20,557 nucleotides of DNA from a virus, in the IMG/VR virus record IMGVR_UViG_3300023202_000291, positions 1 through 20,557 of that record. The stretch is one strand, 5' to 3'. The notes beneath the pieces are model-generated. The model saw only the letters and a program-made list of their open reading frames with translations. It was not told the DNA's origin and did not search any database. Below, piece after piece: positions 221 through 9,831 of this stretch (the first letter of the stretch is position 1; each line of letters begins with the position of its first letter). A program made the translations under genes and the position numbers.

Positions 221-310
221 GGAGAGGTGGCCGAGTGGTCGAAGGCGCACGCCTGGAACGCGTGTAGACGGGCAACCGTCTCCAGGGTTCGAATCCCTGT
301 CTCTCCGCCA
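221..310 (+). tRNA. tRNA-Ser (anticodon GGA)
   Basis: A 90-base class II tRNA with encoded CCA. The acceptor strand GGAGAGG (221-227) pairs with TCTCTCC (300-306) with one G-U pair, followed by discriminator G and CCA. The anticodon stem CACGC/GCGTG encloses the loop CTGGAAC, giving anticodon GGA, which reads UCC/UCU serine codons. The long variable arm (GACGGGCAACCGTC) is typical of tRNA-Ser, and the T-arm GGGTTCGAATCCC is canonical. tRNA genes are common insertion points for mobile elements, and the genes to its right look element-borne, but I found no second copy of the tRNA 3' end in the window by eye. Confidence 0.97.
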
Positions 311-2580: not shown

Positions 2581-2961
2581 TCAGTCGAATACCCGCGCCG
2601 GTTGCTCGTCCCACGGCAGGGATGCCACGAAGCACAGGTCATAGATGCTGATGGTCGAGGGCTCGCGGTGGATGACAAGCCGCTCGAGCACCTCGGGCGC
2701 CAGCCATGCGAGGCGCAGGAGGCGGCTGACGTAGCGGTCGGAGAGGCCCTCGTCGGCGGCCAGATCGGCGAGCGTGGCGACGTCGCTGCGTTCCAGCCGC
2801 TGCCGCCAGCCCCATGCGCGGCCGATGGCCCGCAGGAGGTGGGGATCCTGCCCGCGGTCCATGGCGGCCTCGACGTGCTTCGGCGGAAGGATCCGGGGAC
2901 GACCACCGCGACGGCGGAGCTCGAGGGGGATGTGGACGCGAAGGGTCTCGGGCTCGGGCAT
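2581..2961 (-). CDS. Small HTH (ParB/KorB-like) protein of the recombinase operon
   Basis: A 126-residue protein with an Arg/Pro-rich N-terminus and a central helix-turn-helix-like stretch (TLADLAADEGLSDRYVSRLL, about residues 61-80) that resembles the HTH of ParB/KorB proteins. Its ATG at 2961 overlaps the TGA of the serine recombinase (ATGA), so the two are probably translationally coupled. Similar short proteins accompany DUF2924-type recombinase operons in alphaproteobacteria, as far as I recall. A role as DNA-binding accessory factor, for example in directionality of integration or excision, is inference. Confidence 0.75.
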   Translation of the reverse strand: MPEPETLRVHIPLELRRRGGRPRILPPKHVEAAMDRGQDPHLLRAIGRAWGWRQRLERSDVATLADLAADEGLSDRYVSRLLRLAWLAPEVLERLVIHREPSTISIYDLCFVASLPWDEQPARVFD

Positions 2962-4283
2962 CAGGCGACCTCCTTCTTCGGCGGGGCCATCAGCGCAGCG
3001 ATGGCGCCGAGGCCGTCGTGGCGCAGGTCGATGGCGAGCCCCGCCTCGCTGACGGTGATGCGCGCGACCAGTAGCTGGACGATGCGCGCCTGCTCGGCCG
3101 GGATGAGCGCCTTCCACAGGTCGTCGAACTGCGCCAGCGCGGCAACGACGGTGGTTTCGTCGAGATCGGGACGGTCCTTCCGCACCGCCCGCGCTGTGCG
3201 CGCCGCCACCTCGGGCGTGCGCAGCATGCGACGGATTTCGCCGATCACCGCCTCCTCGACCATCGCACCCGGCAGGCGCTGCGGCCCGCGCAGCTCGGCC
3301 GCTGGGCGTTTTCGGATAACGTCCATCGAGGTGTAGTAACAGTAGCGCTTGCCCTTCCGCTTGGTGTGGTGGGGCGTCATGGCGGCACCGGTCTCGGTGA
3401 AGATCAGCCCGCGCAGGAGCGCAGGCTGCGCCGTTCGCGCCACCGCCGCCCGCGCCACGCGGTTGTTGGCCATCACGGCATGCGCCTCGTCCCACAGCTT
3501 CTGGTCGATGATCGCCTTATGCTCGCCTGGATGGACCTCGTCCTTGTGCACGGCGAGGCCGAGATAGACCTTGTTGTGCAGGAATTTCAGCAGGTAGCCC
3601 CGGTCGAACACCGCGCCGCGTTTGGTGCGGATGCCGCGCGCATGCAATTCCTTCAGCACCTGCGCGGTGGAACTTGACCGCGCATAGAGGCGGAAGATCG
3701 TCAGGACGTGCTCGGCCTCGGCGGGCTCGATCACCAGCTTGCGGTCCTTGACGACGTAGCCAAGCGGCACCGGACCGCCCATCCACATGCCCTTGCGGCG
3801 CGAGGCGGCGAACTTGTCGCGGATGCGTTCGCCGATCACCTCGCGTTCGAACTGGGCGAAGCTGAGCAGGATGTTCAGTGTCAGCCGCCCCATGGACGTC
3901 GTGGTGTTGAAGGACTGCGTCACCGAGACGAAGGTGACGCCTTGGCGGTCGAAAATCTCCACCAGCTTCGAGAAATCCATAAGAGCGCGGCTGAGGCGGT
4001 CGATCCTGTAGACCACGACCACGTCGATCAGCCCGGCCTCGATGTCGGCGATCAACTGCGCCAACGCGGGCCGGTCCAGCGTCCCGCCCGAGAAGCCGCC
4101 ATCGTCATAGCGGTCGCGCAGCGCCACCCAGCCCTCGGCGCCCTGCGAAGCGATGTAGGCCTCGCAGGCCTCACGCTGGGCGTCGAGGCTGTTGAACTCC
4201 ATGTCGAGCCCTTCCTCGCTCGACTTGCGGGTGTAGATGGCGCAGCGCAAGCGGCGGACGGGTTCGGGCTTCGCACGGCTCAT
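2961..4283 (-). CDS. Large serine recombinase (phage/element integrase)
   Basis: A 440-residue site-specific recombinase. The N-terminal resolvase-type catalytic domain (about 13-160) shows YTRKSS, with Ser21 the likely nucleophile, SLDAQREA, and YRIDRLSRAL with the conserved arginines. A Recombinase (PF07508-like) domain follows (KRGAVFDRGYLLKFLHNKVYLG), then the usual zinc-ribbon position (LLRGLIFTETGAAMTPHHTKRKGKRYCYYT), where the Cys pairs are missing, and a C-terminal helical region. The ATG at 4283 overlaps the stop of the DUF2924-type gene. This family carries out integration between attP and attB without high homology. It is the only integrase visible and is probably that of the element to its right. 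Confidence 0.93.
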   Translation of the reverse strand: MSRAKPEPVRRLRCAIYTRKSSEEGLDMEFNSLDAQREACEAYIASQGAEGWVALRDRYDDGGFSGGTLDRPALAQLIADIEAGLIDVVVVYRIDRLSRALMDFSKLVEIFDRQGVTFVSVTQSFNTTTSMGRLTLNILLSFAQFEREVIGERIRDKFAASRRKGMWMGGPVPLGYVVKDRKLVIEPAEAEHVLTIFRLYARSSSTAQVLKELHARGIRTKRGAVFDRGYLLKFLHNKVYLGLAVHKDEVHPGEHKAIIDQKLWDEAHAVMANNRVARAAVARTAQPALLRGLIFTETGAAMTPHHTKRKGKRYCYYTSMDVIRKRPAAELRGPQRLPGAMVEEAVIGEIRRMLRTPEVAARTARAVRKDRPDLDETTVVAALAQFDDLWKALIPAEQARIVQLLVARITVSEAGLAIDLRHDGLGAIAALMAPPKKEVA

Positions 4284-4780
4284 GGGCGGGCCTCCGCGCC
4301 ATGGGCCAGCCCGAAGAACTTCCACCCGTTCCAGTGACTGCCGGTGATCGCGCGCACCGCGGCCGAGAGCGACTTGAAGCGCCGCCCCTGCCATTCGAAG
4401 CCGTCGGTCAGCACCGTGACGACCTGCTCCTCGCCCTGCCATTCGCGCACCAGCTTGGTGCCGGGGATTGGGCGGCGGGGATCCGCAATCAGCGGGCCCG
4501 GCGTCCCCGAGGCGACCTCGGCCGCCAGCGCGTCCAGCGTGCGGCGCGTGGCGGGCTTGATGCCACCATGGGCGAGTTCCTGGATGCGGTAGCCGATCCG
4601 CAGCTCCAGATTCCCGCGGCTGGCGTTCGGCGCGGGCTCGCCGAACATGACCCGCCACTTGCCCTGCAACTCGGGCACTGTCATTGCCTTCAGCGCCGCC
4701 AGTTCGGCAAGGACGTCGATCCCCTCGGCCTGGCCCGCAAGCGCGGCCTTCGCGCCTGACTTCCTTGTGTTTTTCCTCAT
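4280..4780 (-). CDS. DUF2924-type protein
   Basis: A 166-residue basic protein with the features I associate with DUF2924: a segment on FGEPAPNASRGNLELRIGYRIQELA (residues about 46-70, split here only for naming), a GTKLVREWQGEEQVVTVL strand pair, and a C-terminal FEWQGRRFKSLSAAVRAI stretch followed by GSHWNGWKFFGL. The C-terminal part resembles a small DNA-binding module found in several phage-linked proteins. It overlaps both neighbours by ATGA and always seems to sit directly upstream of this type of serine recombinase, which suggests a partner role in recombination. Its biochemical function is not known to me. Confidence 0.88.
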   Translation of the reverse strand: MRKNTRKSGAKAALAGQAEGIDVLAELAALKAMTVPELQGKWRVMFGEPAPNASRGNLELRIGYRIQELAHGGIKPATRRTLDALAAEVASGTPGPLIADPRRPIPGTKLVREWQGEEQVVTVLTDGFEWQGRRFKSLSAAVRAITGSHWNGWKFFGLAHGAEARP

Positions 4781-4995
4781 GCATCGTCTCCAACTCGGTT
4801 TTGCACCTGTCTCCGACGACGGCGTCTGAGGGCGAGAATGTCCAGCGAACTGTCTCCGTCGAGCGGAGACTTTTCGTTCGATTCCTGTGGGTTGGTGCGC
4901 ATAATGGCGTCGGCGAGGATGGCGGCCAGCTCCGCCAGCCGCTCATCGGTGGTGAGCGTCTCGGCGGGCGGCGCGAAGGCGATGTCGTCTTGCAT
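4777..4995 (-). CDS. Small protein leading the recombinase operon
   Basis: A 72-residue protein (MQDDIAFAPPAETL...) ending in a very basic stretch (LRRRRRRQVQNRVG). The ATG at 4995 is chosen because GGAGG stands 10 bases upstream; a GTG at 5034 would add 13 residues but has no ribosome-binding site. Its stop overlaps the next gene by ATGA. Size, charge and position suggest a DNA-binding accessory factor, possibly a recombination directionality factor, but no family is recognised. Confidence 0.65.
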   Translation of the reverse strand: MQDDIAFAPPAETLTTDERLAELAAILADAIMRTNPQESNEKSPLDGDSSLDILALRRRRRRQVQNRVGDDA

Positions 4996-5128
4996 GGGGA
5001 GCGAACCTCCTGAGGCGATTTGCTCCGTGTTCACCGCTCGCGGCGATGGATTTCAAGTCAAAACAAGGGGTTGTCGAAAGGGGGAGTAGCTTTGCGCAGC
5101 AGGTCGTGCATGTTGCGCTGGTGTTCAC

Positions 5129-5157
5129 TTGACGCTGAATTCTAGAAAAGCTTGATT
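5129..5157 (+). promoter_or_regulatory. Weak promoter candidate for the 5209-6597 gene
   Basis: TTGACG (5129-5134) is followed after 17 bases by TTGATT (5152-5157). The -35 is good and the -10 poor. It reads towards the lower-GC gene that follows. Confidence 0.2.
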
Positions 5158-5208
5158 CATTGAAGGCGATAGCCCGCCAACGGTTGTGAACCTCAGCGGA
5201 ACCGGACG

Positions 5209-6597
5209 TTGATCCCCCTGTCACTATTCACATTGAAAGGTCAGAAATTGGTATTGAAGGATCATGTTCGACGGCGGCGCCGGTTGGTGCCGCCCTTGCT
5301 TGCAATGATGGGGCAGAACTACTCGCCATACTCTTGGGCGACGCAACTTGTTCCGGAGTTCTTCTGGTTATCAATCTTGACCCGTGAGTTTGGGATGCAA
5401 GACGGCGTCGAAGCTGCCCAAGTCTTAGGGAAAACCGCCAGCGACACGAGCTCGAAAGATCCTAAGCCACTTTTTGCGAAACTTTCCTCATTCTCCGAAC
5501 TAAGCCCAGAGGAGGGAGAGGAAGTAACGCATAAAATCCCATCCTGCATTTTGGAACGATTGAGAACTGCGCTGGAGCCAGTTTCTGCGATTTGGCCAGA
5601 TTTTCCACTCGCTTTTCTGGGTATTTCATCTGCACAAAGTTCAAGCGTGGCGCTTGATAAGATCTCCGATATCCTTGAGGCATTGTATGATAGGCGCGGA
5701 AGAGATGCCACGCTAGCTGTGACCACGGCGGCCTACCTCGGCCTGACCCAGGGGCGAATTGTTCTTGCATCCGAAATGGCGACAAAGGCAGAAGAGGCTC
5801 TCCGGGATATAGAGAAATATCCATCCACCCATGAATCGCGGGCAGCTGGAGCGTTCTTCAGGGCCATGGCGCCAATGTTCCTGCTTGGCGACAATGGTGC
5901 TGGCGATCAAAAACTTAGCAATTGGGCCGCGTCCTTTTGGGAAACAATTTCTGATTTAGGTGGCTGCATCGGGAAGCACCAAGATATTCCAGAGCTTCCG
6001 GAAGTGACTGAGGGGATCGAAGGCTTCATTATTGCATATAGGCATTTTGCCAACAAGGATGTCAGATCGAGACAGGCCGCTTGGAAGATTGACTTGGGAA
6101 ACGTTGAGGAGCAGCAAGTTCTGCTTGCCCTCCTTGCGCGTCAAGCGACTCTGGCTATCGAAATCGTGTCGGCGCCAAGCACCTGGAACCCAAATGTTGC
6201 ACCTGTATTGCTTCGCGCAATGGCAGATGTTCACATCACACTTGTTTGGCTTCTCGGTGATCCAAAAGTCAGGGTCCCGATGTATGTGTCCGATGGGCTG
6301 GGAGCGATAAAATTGGAGATTGCGCATCGGGAGGAGGAGATAAAACGCAACCCAAGCGCGGCAGCTGACGAGCACAACGCTTACACCGAATGCCTCAAGA
6401 ATTGGCTTGAATCGCAGAGGCTTGAGTTTCTGGTAGAGGTTAACCTTGGGAGCTGGTCTGGAAAGAATACAAGAATAATGGCTGAAGAGGCGGGCTGTAT
6501 CGATTTCTACAACTATGTTTTCCAGCCATTTAGCGCAGCGGTCCATTCCTACTGGTCGCATGTGGGCAGGATCAATGTAGAATATTGCGAGAACTGA
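5209..6597 (+). CDS. Unidentified cargo protein, possibly DUF5677-like
   Basis: Up to 462 residues. No ATG begins the frame: TTG at 5209, or TTG at 5248 with AAAGG seven bases upstream (449 residues), are likely; the basic stretch KDHVRRRRRLVPPLLAMMG looks like a real N-terminus, which argues against the first ATG at 5305. The protein is mainly helical and soluble. The region RQATLAIEIVSAPSTW through LLRAMADVHITLVWLLGDP (about 313-352) resembles DUF5677, a family of unknown function sometimes found near defence genes; the assignment is tentative. GC content and third-position GC are clearly lower than in flanking genes, so it was probably acquired separately. It diverges from the integration operon and is not coupled to any neighbour. 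Confidence 0.75.
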   Translation: MIPLSLFTLKGQKLVLKDHVRRRRRLVPPLLAMMGQNYSPYSWATQLVPEFFWLSILTREFGMQDGVEAAQVLGKTASDTSSKDPKPLFAKLSSFSELSPEEGEEVTHKIPSCILERLRTALEPVSAIWPDFPLAFLGISSAQSSSVALDKISDILEALYDRRGRDATLAVTTAAYLGLTQGRIVLASEMATKAEEALRDIEKYPSTHESRAAGAFFRAMAPMFLLGDNGAGDQKLSNWAASFWETISDLGGCIGKHQDIPELPEVTEGIEGFIIAYRHFANKDVRSRQAAWKIDLGNVEEQQVLLALLARQATLAIEIVSAPSTWNPNVAPVLLRAMADVHITLVWLLGDPKVRVPMYVSDGLGAIKLEIAHREEEIKRNPSAAADEHNAYTECLKNWLESQRLEFLVEVNLGSWSGKNTRIMAEEAGCIDFYNYVFQPFSAAVHSYWSHVGRINVEYCEN

Positions 6598-6633
6598 TCT
6601 CATAATTTCCACTTCCTGCCCATCTTGCCCTCA

Positions 6634-6804
6634 TTAGAACCCGACACTCATTGGTGTATCCTCGCGGCAAAATATCTTAGAAAGACACTTTCCGCGTTCG
6701 ATGATGCACTGCAACTCGGGGAACTGCCGTGTGAGTCCTTTCTCGTAGTTGTAGATGCTTTTTCGGAAAGAACTGAATCGGATGAAGGGGAAACCTCTGG
6801 CCAC
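6634..6804 (-). pseudogene. Possible small ORF or gene remnant
   Basis: A leftward frame is open for about 70 codons and ends at a TAA at 6634-6636. A GTG at 6804 could start a 56-residue peptide beginning VARGFPFIRF and ending CREDTPMSVGF; there is no clear ribosome-binding site. The composition matches the lower-GC gene before it rather than the phage genes after it. It could be the tail of a broken gene or chance. Confidence 0.22.
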
Positions 6805-6857
6805 GGTTCCGATTGATTCAATTAGTTGAGAATACGGGTGTGTGTCGGCAGCCGGCT

Positions 6858-7589
6858 TCAATGTCGCATCGACCGTAGCACCATCCCATCGGTCTCCAGC
6901 CGCAGCGTCGCCCGCCACAACGGCGTCTTCATGAACACCGCGTTCTCGAACCGATAGCTCGGCGTTCCTCGCTCTTGCTGTAGAAGTCCCGCCCAACAGA
7001 GCGGGCGCAGCACCTGGATGTAGAGCTGGCCCATCACATCGTCATAGCGCGGGACGGGCCCTTCCTCGGGCTCGCCGAAAAGCACGCGGCGAAGGTGGGC
7101 GCCAGTGGCGCCGTCCTCGGTCTCGGTGTTCAGGACGTTAAGGAAAACGTCCCAGTTGCCGAGGATCGGCACGTCGTCGAACCGCGACATGCTGGCGTGG
7201 TTGATCCGGAACAGGAAGAACGGGACGACCGTGCCGAAAATCCGGCCTGGATGGCCCGTCAGCGCCTGGCCGGTCTTGGTCAGGCGGAACTCACCCTTGT
7301 AGTGCCGCCCGAGCTTCATCGCGATCATCAGGTCGTGCAGCACCGTGAGCGGGGCGAAGTCAGGCTCGTTCAGTACCTTGTTGACGGCGAAGAGGTCCGC
7401 CTCGGTGTGGCCGGGCCAGTCGAACTCGGCCGCGGCCCAATGCACGAATACCCGCTTGAACGCCTTGGACGGCGTCAGGGGGATGCCGCCGTGTTCGCCG
7501 ATCCAGGCGAAGGTCTTCTCGACACCACGTAGCAGCGGCGAGAACGCCAGCGCCGGATCGGCATCGTCGATTTCCCGAAACGCGATCAC
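6858..7589 (-). CDS. Unknown protein cotranscribed with the repressor
   Basis: A 243-residue protein that I do not recognise. The middle part (about 85-115, LHDLMIAMKLGRHYKGEFRL then TKTGQAL) looks like a winged-helix fold, and the C-terminal part (PLCWAGLLQQERG...YRFENAVFMKTPLW) like a second one. It starts with GTG at 7589, one base after the repressor stop, with GGGAG seven bases upstream, so it is the second gene of the repressor transcript. The location suggests a function kept in the lysogenic state, such as immunity, partner regulation or superinfection exclusion; this is inference. Confidence 0.8.
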   Translation of the reverse strand: MIAFREIDDADPALAFSPLLRGVEKTFAWIGEHGGIPLTPSKAFKRVFVHWAAAEFDWPGHTEADLFAVNKVLNEPDFAPLTVLHDLMIAMKLGRHYKGEFRLTKTGQALTGHPGRIFGTVVPFFLFRINHASMSRFDDVPILGNWDVFLNVLNTETEDGATGAHLRRVLFGEPEEGPVPRYDDVMGQLYIQVLRPLCWAGLLQQERGTPSYRFENAVFMKTPLWRATLRLETDGMVLRSMRH

Positions 7590-7590
7590 C

Positions 7591-8268
7591 TCAGATCTCC
7601 CGCGCGAACCAACGGATGCGGCCGACGATGTGGATCTCGTCGGCCGTTCTTTCGTATTCGGGGTAGTGCTTGTTGTCGGAGATGACGCGCACCGCGGGCG
7701 GGTCGCTGTTCGGGATGTGCTCGAGTCGCTTGGCGACCAGTCCCAGCCCGTCGTCCAGCACGAAGATGCCGGGCGGGTTGGGGGCGCGGCGGGTCATGTC
7801 GACCAGCACGGCATCGCCGCTCAGCAGCGTCGGCGCCATGCTGTCGCCCTCCACATGCATGATGCGCAGTTGAGACGGGCTGGCCTTGAGCTTGTGGCGG
7901 ATCCACGATTGGCGGAAGTGATAGACACGGCCGGGGGTGTCACCGTCTTCCGTCACGACCGCGCCGCCGCCCATCGCGGGGCGCGGGGTGGCGTGCGCGA
8001 TGGCCACGAAGGCATCGTCGGGATTGTCCACAAAGGGGGGCGTTCCCTCGACCTCGCCGATACCGTGGATCAGCCAGTCGCGGTCCACCTTCAGAACTCG
8101 GGCGACCTCGGCCAGTCGGTCGAGGCCCGGGCGCGCGGAGCGGCCGCGCAGGATGTCGTAGACGAAGGAGCGGTGTACGCCGGCCATCTCGGCGACATGG
8201 GCAGGCGTCAGGCCGAGCTGATGGGCGCGGGCCCGCAGGCGTTCGGCCAGGGTGTGCTGCTCGGTCAT
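7591..8268 (-). CDS. CI/LexA-like transcriptional repressor (XRE HTH + S24 peptidase)
   Basis: A 225-residue phage repressor. The N-terminal XRE-type helix-turn-helix (about 6-65) contains LTPAHVAEMAGVHRSFVYDI. The C-terminal S24 domain (about 115-225) has the expected Ser nucleophile in EGDSMAPTL (Ser143) and Lys in GLVAKRL (Lys180), in the fold used for dimerisation and self-cleavage. No Ala-Gly or Cys-Gly bond is visible between residues 70 and 112, where cleavage would occur. The start at 8268 follows GGGG four bases upstream and the recognisable domain begins here, although the frame is open further. It diverges from the gene at 8378 and probably represses that promoter and its own. Confidence 0.93.
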   Translation of the reverse strand: MTEQHTLAERLRARAHQLGLTPAHVAEMAGVHRSFVYDILRGRSARPGLDRLAEVARVLKVDRDWLIHGIGEVEGTPPFVDNPDDAFVAIAHATPRPAMGGGAVVTEDGDTPGRVYHFRQSWIRHKLKASPSQLRIMHVEGDSMAPTLLSGDAVLVDMTRRAPNPPGIFVLDDGLGLVAKRLEHIPNSDPPAVRVISDNKHYPEYERTADEIHIVGRIRWFAREI

Positions 8269-8278
8269 GTTTTCCCCA

Positions 8279-8312
8279 AGGATATGTGGATGAAATAGGA
8301 TAAAACAGGATT
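8279..8312. promoter_or_regulatory. Candidate repressor operators: three AGGAT(A/T) repeats
   Basis: AGGATA at 8279-8284, AGGATA at 8297-8302 and AGGATT at 8307-8312 are direct repeats. The second overlaps the -10 of the repressor promoter and the third lies in its spacer and against the -35 of the opposing promoter. The last two are 10 bases apart, about one helical turn. The layout fits binding by the adjacent repressor to control both directions. Confidence 0.45.
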
Positions 8313-8328
8313 GATGCGGACCCGTCAA
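8300..8328 (-). promoter_or_regulatory. Promoter of the repressor operon
   Basis: On the minus strand TTGACG (8328-8323) is separated by exactly 17 bases from TTTTAT (8305-8300). Transcription would start near 8293, about 25 bases before the repressor ATG at 8268. Confidence 0.55.
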
Positions 8329-8339
8329 GCGATTAGAAC
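8311..8339 (+). promoter_or_regulatory. Promoter candidate of the divergent early gene
   Basis: TTGATG (8311-8316) and TAGAAC (8334-8339) are separated by 17 bases. It faces the repressor promoter across the same DNA, so the two probably exclude each other. The first gene start is at 8378. Confidence 0.4.
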
Positions 8340-8377
8340 AAAACCTAAACAATCGCACATGGGACTCGGGGGACCGG

Positions 8378-9061
8378 ATGGAGATCGAGAAGTCGTATTT
8401 CACCCTGCCGGAGATCCTCGAGCGCTGGTCCATGTCCGAGGCGGACCTCGTCTACCTGGCCGAGAACGACCAGCTGCGTCTGTCGATCCGGGTGTTCAAC
8501 CTGCCCGTCGAACTCGGTGACTACGAGGAGACGCCGGAGGGGGAGCGATTCTCCGTGCCCTTCGAGCGGGGGCCGTTCAACGGGCTCCTGGATCTCCACG
8601 CCCATGACGTCTTCCAGCTGTTCCGGCATGGCGAGGTGAAGCTCAGCCGCTTCCGCTCGCACAAGGCCGACTATGCCTGCCTGACAGGGGAGCGAGAGCT
8701 CATCACCGTGCGGCAGCGCGATCTTTTCCTCAGGCGGGACGAGCGTGACCGCTTCGAGGCCGAGACGGGATTTGCCGGAGCGGCTGCCGGACCACGACCC
8801 GGCGCGTTCCATGCCTCCGCCGACTACCAGGATGTCCGCTGCAACGGTCAGCACTTCCGGCTGGGTGCGATCCAGGCGCAGGCCGTGCGCGCGCTGCACG
8901 AGGCTGCCGGGCGCGGCGAGCCTTGGCAGAGTGGCAAAGCGATCCTCGCCGCCGCGGGCTCGCGCAGCCTCAAGATGTCCGATGTCTTCAAGTCGAAGAA
9001 GAACTGGCGGCTGCTGATCGAATCGGACGGCCGCGGCGCCTATCGCCTGCTCGGGCTCTGA
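8378..9061 (+). CDS. Unknown protein divergent from the repressor, possible regulator
   Basis: A 227-residue protein of unrecognised family. The N-terminus (FTLPEILERWSMSEADLVYLAEN, residues 8-30) looks like a small HTH, and the C-terminal part (about 160-227, with AIQAQAVRALHEA, SGKAILAAAGS and KNWRLLIESDGRGAYRLL) like a winged helix. The ATG at 8378 has GGGGGA five bases upstream. As the first rightward gene opposite the repressor it occupies the place of cro-type or early activator genes in lambda-like phages; a regulatory role is inferred from position and the HTH-like ends only. Confidence 0.82.
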   Translation: MEIEKSYFTLPEILERWSMSEADLVYLAENDQLRLSIRVFNLPVELGDYEETPEGERFSVPFERGPFNGLLDLHAHDVFQLFRHGEVKLSRFRSHKADYACLTGERELITVRQRDLFLRRDERDRFEAETGFAGAAAGPRPGAFHASADYQDVRCNGQHFRLGAIQAQAVRALHEAAGRGEPWQSGKAILAAAGSRSLKMSDVFKSKKNWRLLIESDGRGAYRLLGL

Positions 9062-9129
9062 GCCCGCGCCATCCCTCCCATCCGCGTGCCCACCCCATCC
9101 CCTGCGGTGGGATGCGCCGGGGGATGAGA

Positions 9130-9147
9130 GGGGGATGGCGATCCCCC
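9130..9147 (+). terminator. Strong GC hairpin without T run
   Basis: GGGGGAT (9130-9136) and ATCCCCC (9141-9147) form a perfect seven-pair stem with a GGCG loop, 70 bases after the stop of the upstream gene. The lack of a following T tract makes intrinsic termination doubtful. Confidence 0.3.
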
Positions 9148-9168
9148 ACAGAGCCGTTCTCCCTTGGA

Positions 9169-9198
9169 TTGAAAGGCTCCTGACAATCCCACTCCAAT
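9169..9198 (+). promoter_or_regulatory. Weak promoter candidate for the early operon
   Basis: TTGAAA (9169-9174) and TCCAAT (9193-9198) are separated by 18 bases, about 65 bases before the ATG at 9263. Both boxes are imperfect. Confidence 0.22.
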
Positions 9199-9262
9199 CC
9201 TGACGACATCCCCTCGCGGGATTTCGCATCGTGCTCCCGACAAACGACACCGGGAGACGACG

Positions 9263-9469
9263 ATGCAGCAGAAGACCTGCCTCACACAAAAGGAACTCGC
9301 GCGGCGCTGGACGATCTCGCACCGCACGCTCGAGCGCTGGCGATGGGCCGGGGAAGGCCCCGCCTACATGAAACTCGGCGGCCGGGTGGTCTACCGGCTC
9401 GAGGACATCCTCGCCTTCGAGAAGGACCAGCTCACGCACACCGCCGACAGCGCGCGGGGGGCGGCATGA
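9263..9469 (+). CDS. Excisionase/MerR-like HTH protein (HTH_17 type)
   Basis: A 68-residue DNA-binding protein. It is nearly all one domain: LTQKELARRWTISHRTLERW is the helix-turn-helix and GEGPAYMKLGGRVVYRLEDI the wing typical of HTH_17/excisionase proteins. GGGAGA lies six bases before the ATG. It opens the rightward early operon, and its stop overlaps the next start (ATGA). Related small proteins act as excisionases or as transcription regulators; which applies here cannot be told, though a serine integrase would normally use a different kind of directionality factor. Confidence 0.85.
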   Translation: MQQKTCLTQKELARRWTISHRTLERWRWAGEGPAYMKLGGRVVYRLEDILAFEKDQLTHTADSARGAA

Positions 9470-9831
9470 TGGAGCGCCGTTCCGCCATCCACGGCAGCCG
9501 GGTCGTGTCGATCTTCGGCGCCGCCGGTCCCGCGCTCGACGAGGTGGGGCTGTCCGCCTGGATCGCGCAGGCCGCCCCGGGCGAGGCGCTGGTCTACCAC
9601 CGCGGCTTCCTCGCCGTCGACGCCACTGGGGCCGTCTCGAACCTCACGCCCGAGCGCCAGCGCACCCTGCGCGGTGTCGCTGCCGCTGCGCTGCGTGCCG
9701 CCGAGCAGCGGCTCGTCCACCTCGTGCAGGCCCGGCTTGGCCCCGACCATTTCGCCTACATCGCCGTCGCCCGGCCGAAGCCCGGTCCTGCCGGCGCCGC
9801 CCTTTCGATGCGCCTCCTCGAGGCCGCCTGA
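9466..9831 (+). CDS. Unknown early phage protein
   Basis: A 121-residue protein of unrecognised family starting at one of two adjacent ATGs (9466 or 9469) that overlap the stop of the HTH gene; GGGGGG precedes them. It has an N-terminal alpha/beta part (VYHRGFLAVDATGAVSNLTP, about 45-64) and a helix rich in Ala/Arg (LRGVAAAALRAAEQRLVHLV). No catalytic motif or membrane segment is visible. Its place in a coupled early operon suggests a small phage accessory protein. Confidence 0.75.
   Translation: MMERRSAIHGSRVVSIFGAAGPALDEVGLSAWIAQAAPGEALVYHRGFLAVDATGAVSNLTPERQRTLRGVAAAALRAAEQRLVHLVQARLGPDHFAYIAVARPKPGPAGAALSMRLLEAA

Follow-up and report, generated by a model that had tools for sequence, protein, structure and literature searches.

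The question raised by this locus is what a single gene of unusually low GC content is doing between the integration and regulatory modules of a temperate phage, and whether it could serve in defence against other phages. The window, which here means the whole virus record of 20,557 bases that was analyzed, holds a 462-aa open reading frame (ORF) at positions 5209-6597 on the plus strand. The GC content of this ORF is 0.513 and its GC3 is 0.541. In segments of the same length (1389 bases) taken from the same record with the stretch 5000-6900 excluded, the lowest GC value was 0.573 and the mean was 0.667 (sd 0.031, n = 15,878), which agrees with the visibly different base composition reported in the initial annotation. 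The GC3 values of the other listed genes of the window are mostly 0.82-0.91, the helicase gene at 636-2474 being likewise low (0.63). Since homologous genes in relatives have a GC content of 0.536-0.589, the low value is partly a trait of the family. The ORF was also described as having no ATG start, and it indeed opens with TTG, which is the first possible start of the frame in the relatives L002 and L004 as well; the start codon in L003 is ATG, and in L006 an in-frame ATG lies further upstream. As far as can be judged from the sequence, the non-ATG start appears to be real. A promoter and terminator scan of positions 4900-6900 returned one promoter-like site, with more such sites in shuffled sequences, and 0 terminators.

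The surrounding modules are those of an integrating phage. A tRNA-Ser(GGA) gene (221-310, plus strand) is the probable integration site, the homology to the prophage record L124 starting at position 294, inside the 3' end of the tRNA. It is followed on the minus strand by a gene for an SF1 helicase (636-2474, GC 0.579) with the Pfam domains AAA_11/AAA_12, the helicase part of which resembles MkoA (E 3.9e-40). This helicase gene, located between the tRNA and the recombinase, is 95% identical in L023 and L124; L102 has only ~1.2 kb at this position, which therefore may be a second cargo slot. The minus-strand operon at 2581-5034 includes genes for a large serine recombinase (2961-4292, where 4292 is an arbitrary first codon and the true start is nearby; Pfam Resolvase, E 2.9e-38, and Recombinase, E 2.5e-14), a DUF2924 protein (4280-4780; PF11149, E 8.2e-45), and an 85-aa ORF that opens the operon (4777-5034), is near-identical in L107 and L124, and borders the slot described below. 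On the other side, the minus-strand operon at 6858-8268 encodes p243, a conserved 243-aa phage protein (6858-7589) on the opposite border of the slot with 36 relatives in IMG/VR and no Pfam, PHROG, or PADLOC match, and a repressor with helix-turn-helix and S24 domains (7591-8268; Pfam HTH_3 and Peptidase_S24; PHROG 4, E 3.6e-39); p227 of the window likewise had no PADLOC match. The gene of interest stands alone between these two operons, as the initial annotation had stated. A megablast search with the whole window gave no match among phage records and matched 12 plasmid records, none of them covering 80% of the window; the best was from Shinella, with 43% covered, and the tRNA region was nearest to Pseudorhodobacter in the same plasmid search. 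We place the probable host of this temperate phage no lower than the class Alphaproteobacteria.

What occupies the same place in related prophages was analyzed at 116 loci, of which 80 were found via the recombinase (the best 80 of 550) and 36 via the 243-aa flank protein; 9 records were present in both groups, so that 107 records were distinct, and both flanks of the slot were visible in order in 30 of them. In these 30 records the distance from flank to flank was 277-362 bp in 18, 733 and 740 bp in 2, and 1.7-4.3 kb in 10, compared with 2077 bp in the window. Among the insert-free records, L105 is a close relative, with 94-95% identity in the DUF2924 protein and in the 61 recombinase residues that it holds. 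The homology to this empty site stops at 5082 and restarts at 6858, and the unit that distinguishes the window from it, a segment of 1775 bp (5083-6857, GC 0.511), is thus larger than the ORF itself. The recombinases of the other insert-free records are 57-60% identical to that of the window in 12 cases and 61-63% in 5, and most of the 18 therefore represent another lineage of the module. In the ten compared relatives with a recombinase identity of at least 76%, the junctions are sharp, homology being lost at 5076-5117 on the left and at 6855-6879 on the right (L022 contributing to the left junction alone). A different arrangement was observed in L116 and L031, where ~2.3 kb (15137-17409 of L116) separates the genes for DUF2924 and the recombinase, which are adjacent in the other records compared; this gap is another insertion place of the same module.

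Eight filled slots were scanned with PADLOC, and four of them gave matches, one of which was partial. The fillers were IetA/IetS in L107, PD-Lambda-4_A (E 5e-265) in L102, PDC-M01A/B in L130 (PDC being the PADLOC label for candidates), and, in L100, a protein of 374 residues that matches NsnA over residues 15-233 only (E 1.5e-35) and contains a Pfam GmrSD_N domain. These models match fillers of the very same slot; the proteins are unrelated to the DUF5677 protein of the window. From translations only, the slots of L124 and L116 hold an AAA protein near-identical to that of L107 and a similar protease gene, the protease of L124 being shorter (676 vs 816 aa), and L101, outside the 30 records with both flanks, carries IetA. 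The other four scanned slots gave no PADLOC match: L111 (10846-12636, 596 aa), L128 (10923-12688, two proteins that look membrane-like by eye), L024 (6969-8716), and L099 (10744-12114), as was the case for the 399-aa filler of L022 (7903-9102), a record without p243 and also outside the 30. Among these unmatched fillers, which are candidates for new defence systems, a Pfam domain (Schlafen AlbA_2) was recognized in that of L099 only.

The comparison shows a variable slot, insert-free in many relatives and occupied by known or candidate defence systems in others. The proposal of the initial annotation that this is a cargo gene at an accessory or defence site is well supported by this content, the site being empty in the close relative L105 as well as in 17 records of more distant phages, and occupied by other genes elsewhere. 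The location is the strongest evidence for a role in defence. A comparable arrangement is described by Rousset et al. 2022 (PMC9122126) for defence hotspots in P2-like phages and P4 satellites, where a fixed slot of a temperate phage likewise holds antiviral systems that differ between relatives; the phage group of the window differs in its serine recombinase and DUF2924 protein, in the position of the slot, and in the flanking genes.

The second line of evidence is the protein family. The tentative assignment to DUF5677 made previously was confirmed by a Pfam search, in which residues 304-453 matched positions 3-156 of the 166 in the profile PF18928 (E 8.8e-17), with 62.1 bits vs a gathering cut-off of 27.1. 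The protein thus shares with DUF5677 its C-terminal domain and differs in having an additional N-terminal half of ~260 residues, which is common to DitA and is a separate gene in some relatives. Almost the entire protein (residues 15-454) matched the PADLOC model PDLC03826 (DitA) over profile positions 5-425 of 486 (E 2e-15), and no match was found in PHROGs or NCBIfam at E<=0.1. DitA belongs to the two-protein anti-phage system Aditi (DitAB), whose other member, DitB, is represented in PADLOC by the model PDLC03827. Both the name and the two-gene make-up of Aditi are reportedly due to Millman et al. 2022.

The kinship with DitA was also examined through proteins intermediate between the two. 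L136 (genome G481) is a strong DitA match (E 1.2e-57), to which the window protein aligns by BLASTP with E 1e-8 and 25% identity over 315 columns; an hhalign comparison of the close family with L015, a protein sharing 53% identity with L136, gave a probability of 98.5%. Three DitA-like proteins and three relatives of the window gene, aligned without the window's own protein, have 27 invariant columns, and by eye the window protein has R, D, G-x-G, K-L, G-x-W, R-x-M-A, S-x3-H-x2-W, and C-x-N among the invariant positions. DitB (PDLC03827, E<=1) was found in 0 of 8 searched sets consisting of the window and seven genomes or records of relatives, and in 0 of 5 genomes of a second set, G356 being common to both; the control of this search was positive in 1 of 14 genomes. 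By these comparisons, the window protein is a distant relative of DitA, a homologue without DitB in the sets searched. With no DitB turning up in the window or among the relatives' genomes examined, the gene was not classed as an Aditi system. It had been suggested that this may be an undescribed immunity gene, which holds in that no DitB stands alongside, but not in that the protein is DitA-like and Aditi has already been described.

Relatives of the gene are rare and phylogenetically scattered. The close ones (41-45% identity) are from Rhizobium indicum (on a plasmid), Mesorhizobium, Rhizobium multihospitium, a Caulobacteraceae bin, and a Bradyrhizobiaceae bin, and the more distant ones include an Acidobacteria bin. 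The gene was detected in 4 of 397 genomes drawn from one order, in 2 of 385 drawn from the class, where the DitA model was used, and in 2 of 398 drawn from the phylum; these draws are samples of larger groups, and G002 is present in all three. One relative was found in the plasmid search and none by tblastn among 50,697 phage records; scans of viral_contigs, which need short conserved peptides and may omit very near records, also returned no relatives. In two of the four relatives with scanned neighbours, defence genes lie near the homologue. In L004 (Rhizobium multihospitium, gene at 7986-9551) it is part of an island with Gabija and PifA genes: GajA (E 2.1e-194) and GajB (E 2.3e-174) are encoded upstream of it and separated from it by two ORFs (381 and 777 aa), and PifA (E 1.2e-76) is its downstream neighbour. 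In L007 a DUF262 protein (PDC-M55C) and a type I methylase are encoded nearby. The scanned neighbours of L003 and L006 (two proteins each) gave no PADLOC match. Two further genes were seen next to members of the family: a 216-aa gene of L003 (7351-8001), without a Pfam or PADLOC match, has a 4-base overlap with the start of the DitA-like gene and is possibly its partner in that lineage, and a 265-aa gene of L143 (4853-5650), DUF3800-like by eye, lies just upstream of the N-terminal half at 5665-6048.

Taken together, the low-GC, probably foreign gene is most likely a phage-borne defence gene, because of its kinship with DitA and because the slot holds other antiviral genes or nothing in related prophages. 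Whether the copy in the window is functional is a separate question. An in-frame TGA (6595-6597, plus strand) lies within the C-terminal motif C-x-N-P-x-H, which is seen in DitA-like relatives and is intact in 11 of 11 aligned relatives, and takes the place of its Pro codon. Behind this stop, the frame stays open for 72 codons to the next one at 6814-6816 (chance 0.034 at this composition), and the resulting tail remnant (6598-6816, plus strand) shares 27-33% identity with the tails of six relatives, including an incomplete one. Compared with L004, 20 of 63 tail residues are identical; for the 200 columns that precede the stop, the figure is 104 of 198. Because the stop falls within a motif intact in all these relatives, the window copy is, on this alignment, truncated. 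The initial annotation had placed a real plus-strand ORF at 5209-6597, but these coordinates cover a truncated gene whose frame runs 72 codons past the TGA; the stop within the conserved motif was missed, and the copy may therefore be inactive. Aditi and the window gene are alike in that DitA is homologous to the window protein over residues 15-454; the latter differs in having no DitB, in its location in a prophage, and in the loss of the C-terminal tail from the window copy.

The strongest rival reading is a decaying remnant of former defence cargo, inactivated by the nonsense codon and carried neutrally until the slot is refilled, a reading to which we give serious weight while judging it somewhat short of an even chance. 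It is favoured by the sense codon that every one of the aligned relatives has at this position, by the Arg residues of most relatives' tails, which are missing behind the window's stop, and by the open tail itself, which suggests that the loss was recent; the copy was perhaps recently inactivated. The 462 codons before the stop, by contrast, are intact, with an identity over the last 200 columns of 49-53% to the full-length relatives L002, L003, L004, and L006 (overall 40-44%) and of 47% to the incomplete L005 (39% overall), and little of the Pfam domain is missing. The Arg residues behind the motif are absent from L139 too, and their loss alone is therefore no proof of decay. That the truncated copy still works is conceivable, at slightly less than even expectation, and intact copies of the gene exist in relatives.

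Less probable is a cargo gene with some other function in the lysogen, such as host fitness, superinfection exclusion at entry, or a prophage-stabilising toxin. PADLOC gave no match for several of the slot's fillers, and DUF5677 is named in a paper that, going by its title, concerns the severity of Salmonella cases, but the homology to DitA and the matches of other fillers and of some relatives' neighbours to defence models speak against such a role, which we regard as improbable. Readthrough of the TGA, or its decoding as an amino acid, so that the full-length protein is also made, is very unlikely: the open and alignable frame behind the TGA would fit, but TGA ends 12 of the 14 other genes checked in the window and so is not reassigned, and the 66 bases from the TGA onward fold worse than shuffles (z +1.21). 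Recoding and selenocysteine insertion were set aside accordingly, TGA being the usual stop here with no stable RNA structure following. A conserved core gene of the phage, the finding that would have spoken against the initial annotation, can be dismissed, since the low-GC gene was found by tblastn at 0 of the 116 related loci, including the 30 records in which both flanks are visible.

The preferred reading, a defence gene carried by the phage, can be stated with reasonable though not high confidence as follows: an alphaproteobacterial temperate phage has an anti-phage exchange slot that holds a single DitA-like gene, the intact form of which would respond to a competing phage. In the slot between the recombinase and repressor operons, anti-phage systems would be exchanged; the intact protein would probably be expressed weakly from its TTG start in the lysogen and would respond to infection by a competing phage. 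The N-terminal helical part may sense or restrain, and the C-terminal DUF5677 part, with its conserved Arg, Asp, Lys, His, Trp, and Cys residues (among them R336, D351, K368, H446, and C460 in window numbering), may be the effector that halts the infection, a shutdown of the cell (abortive infection) being the most likely means. Two cooperating domains are suggested by the gene structure of relatives, the N- and C-terminal halves being separate overlapping genes in L007 and L014, lying in two frames in L016, and standing apart in L143 with transposase-like ORFs (by eye) in between. The division into sensor and effector together with the abortive mode is speculative, and we hold it to be rather unlikely in this exact form.

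Structure prediction offers the effector idea no support, because the two AlphaFold models, with mean pLDDT values of 54.7 and 53.5, were too poor to use. Foldseek returned nothing at E<=0.001 for either of them, and VIA-align, applied to the first poor model only, gave no match with Z of at least 8; FAT-type four-helix bundles appeared near Z 5 among unrelated rows, as in 3gm1_A (Z 5.0, rmsd 3.7, 108 aligned), and no weight is given to them. Among solved structures searched by sequence, the close alignment had no match at E<=1, and the wider alignment (E<=10) had three, with E 0.34-2.1. HEPN ribonucleases have a four-helix fold and the motif R-x(4-6)-H; the lone string of this form seen by eye, RAMADVH, is not conserved, its His being Phe or Tyr in aligned relatives, and on this motif an assignment to the HEPN ribonucleases was set aside.

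Through this analysis, a low-GC ORF that had no label becomes an antiviral candidate open to testing, and a slot for the exchange of defence genes is located in a group of serine-recombinase prophages; those of its fillers that match no model are promising as new defence systems. Aditi is listed among the systems of unknown mechanism in a passage of a review (PMC12926258), and DitA-type proteins that occur without DitB, as suggested here, would simplify working out the role of DitA. In more general terms, and tentatively, at a little under even odds, the DitA-like DUF5677 proteins may be a one-gene antiviral system without DitB, carried on mobile elements of Alphaproteobacteria and others and built from two separable halves that are fused or overlapping, and the slot may be an untapped source of new systems, such as the fillers of L111, L128, L024, and L099.
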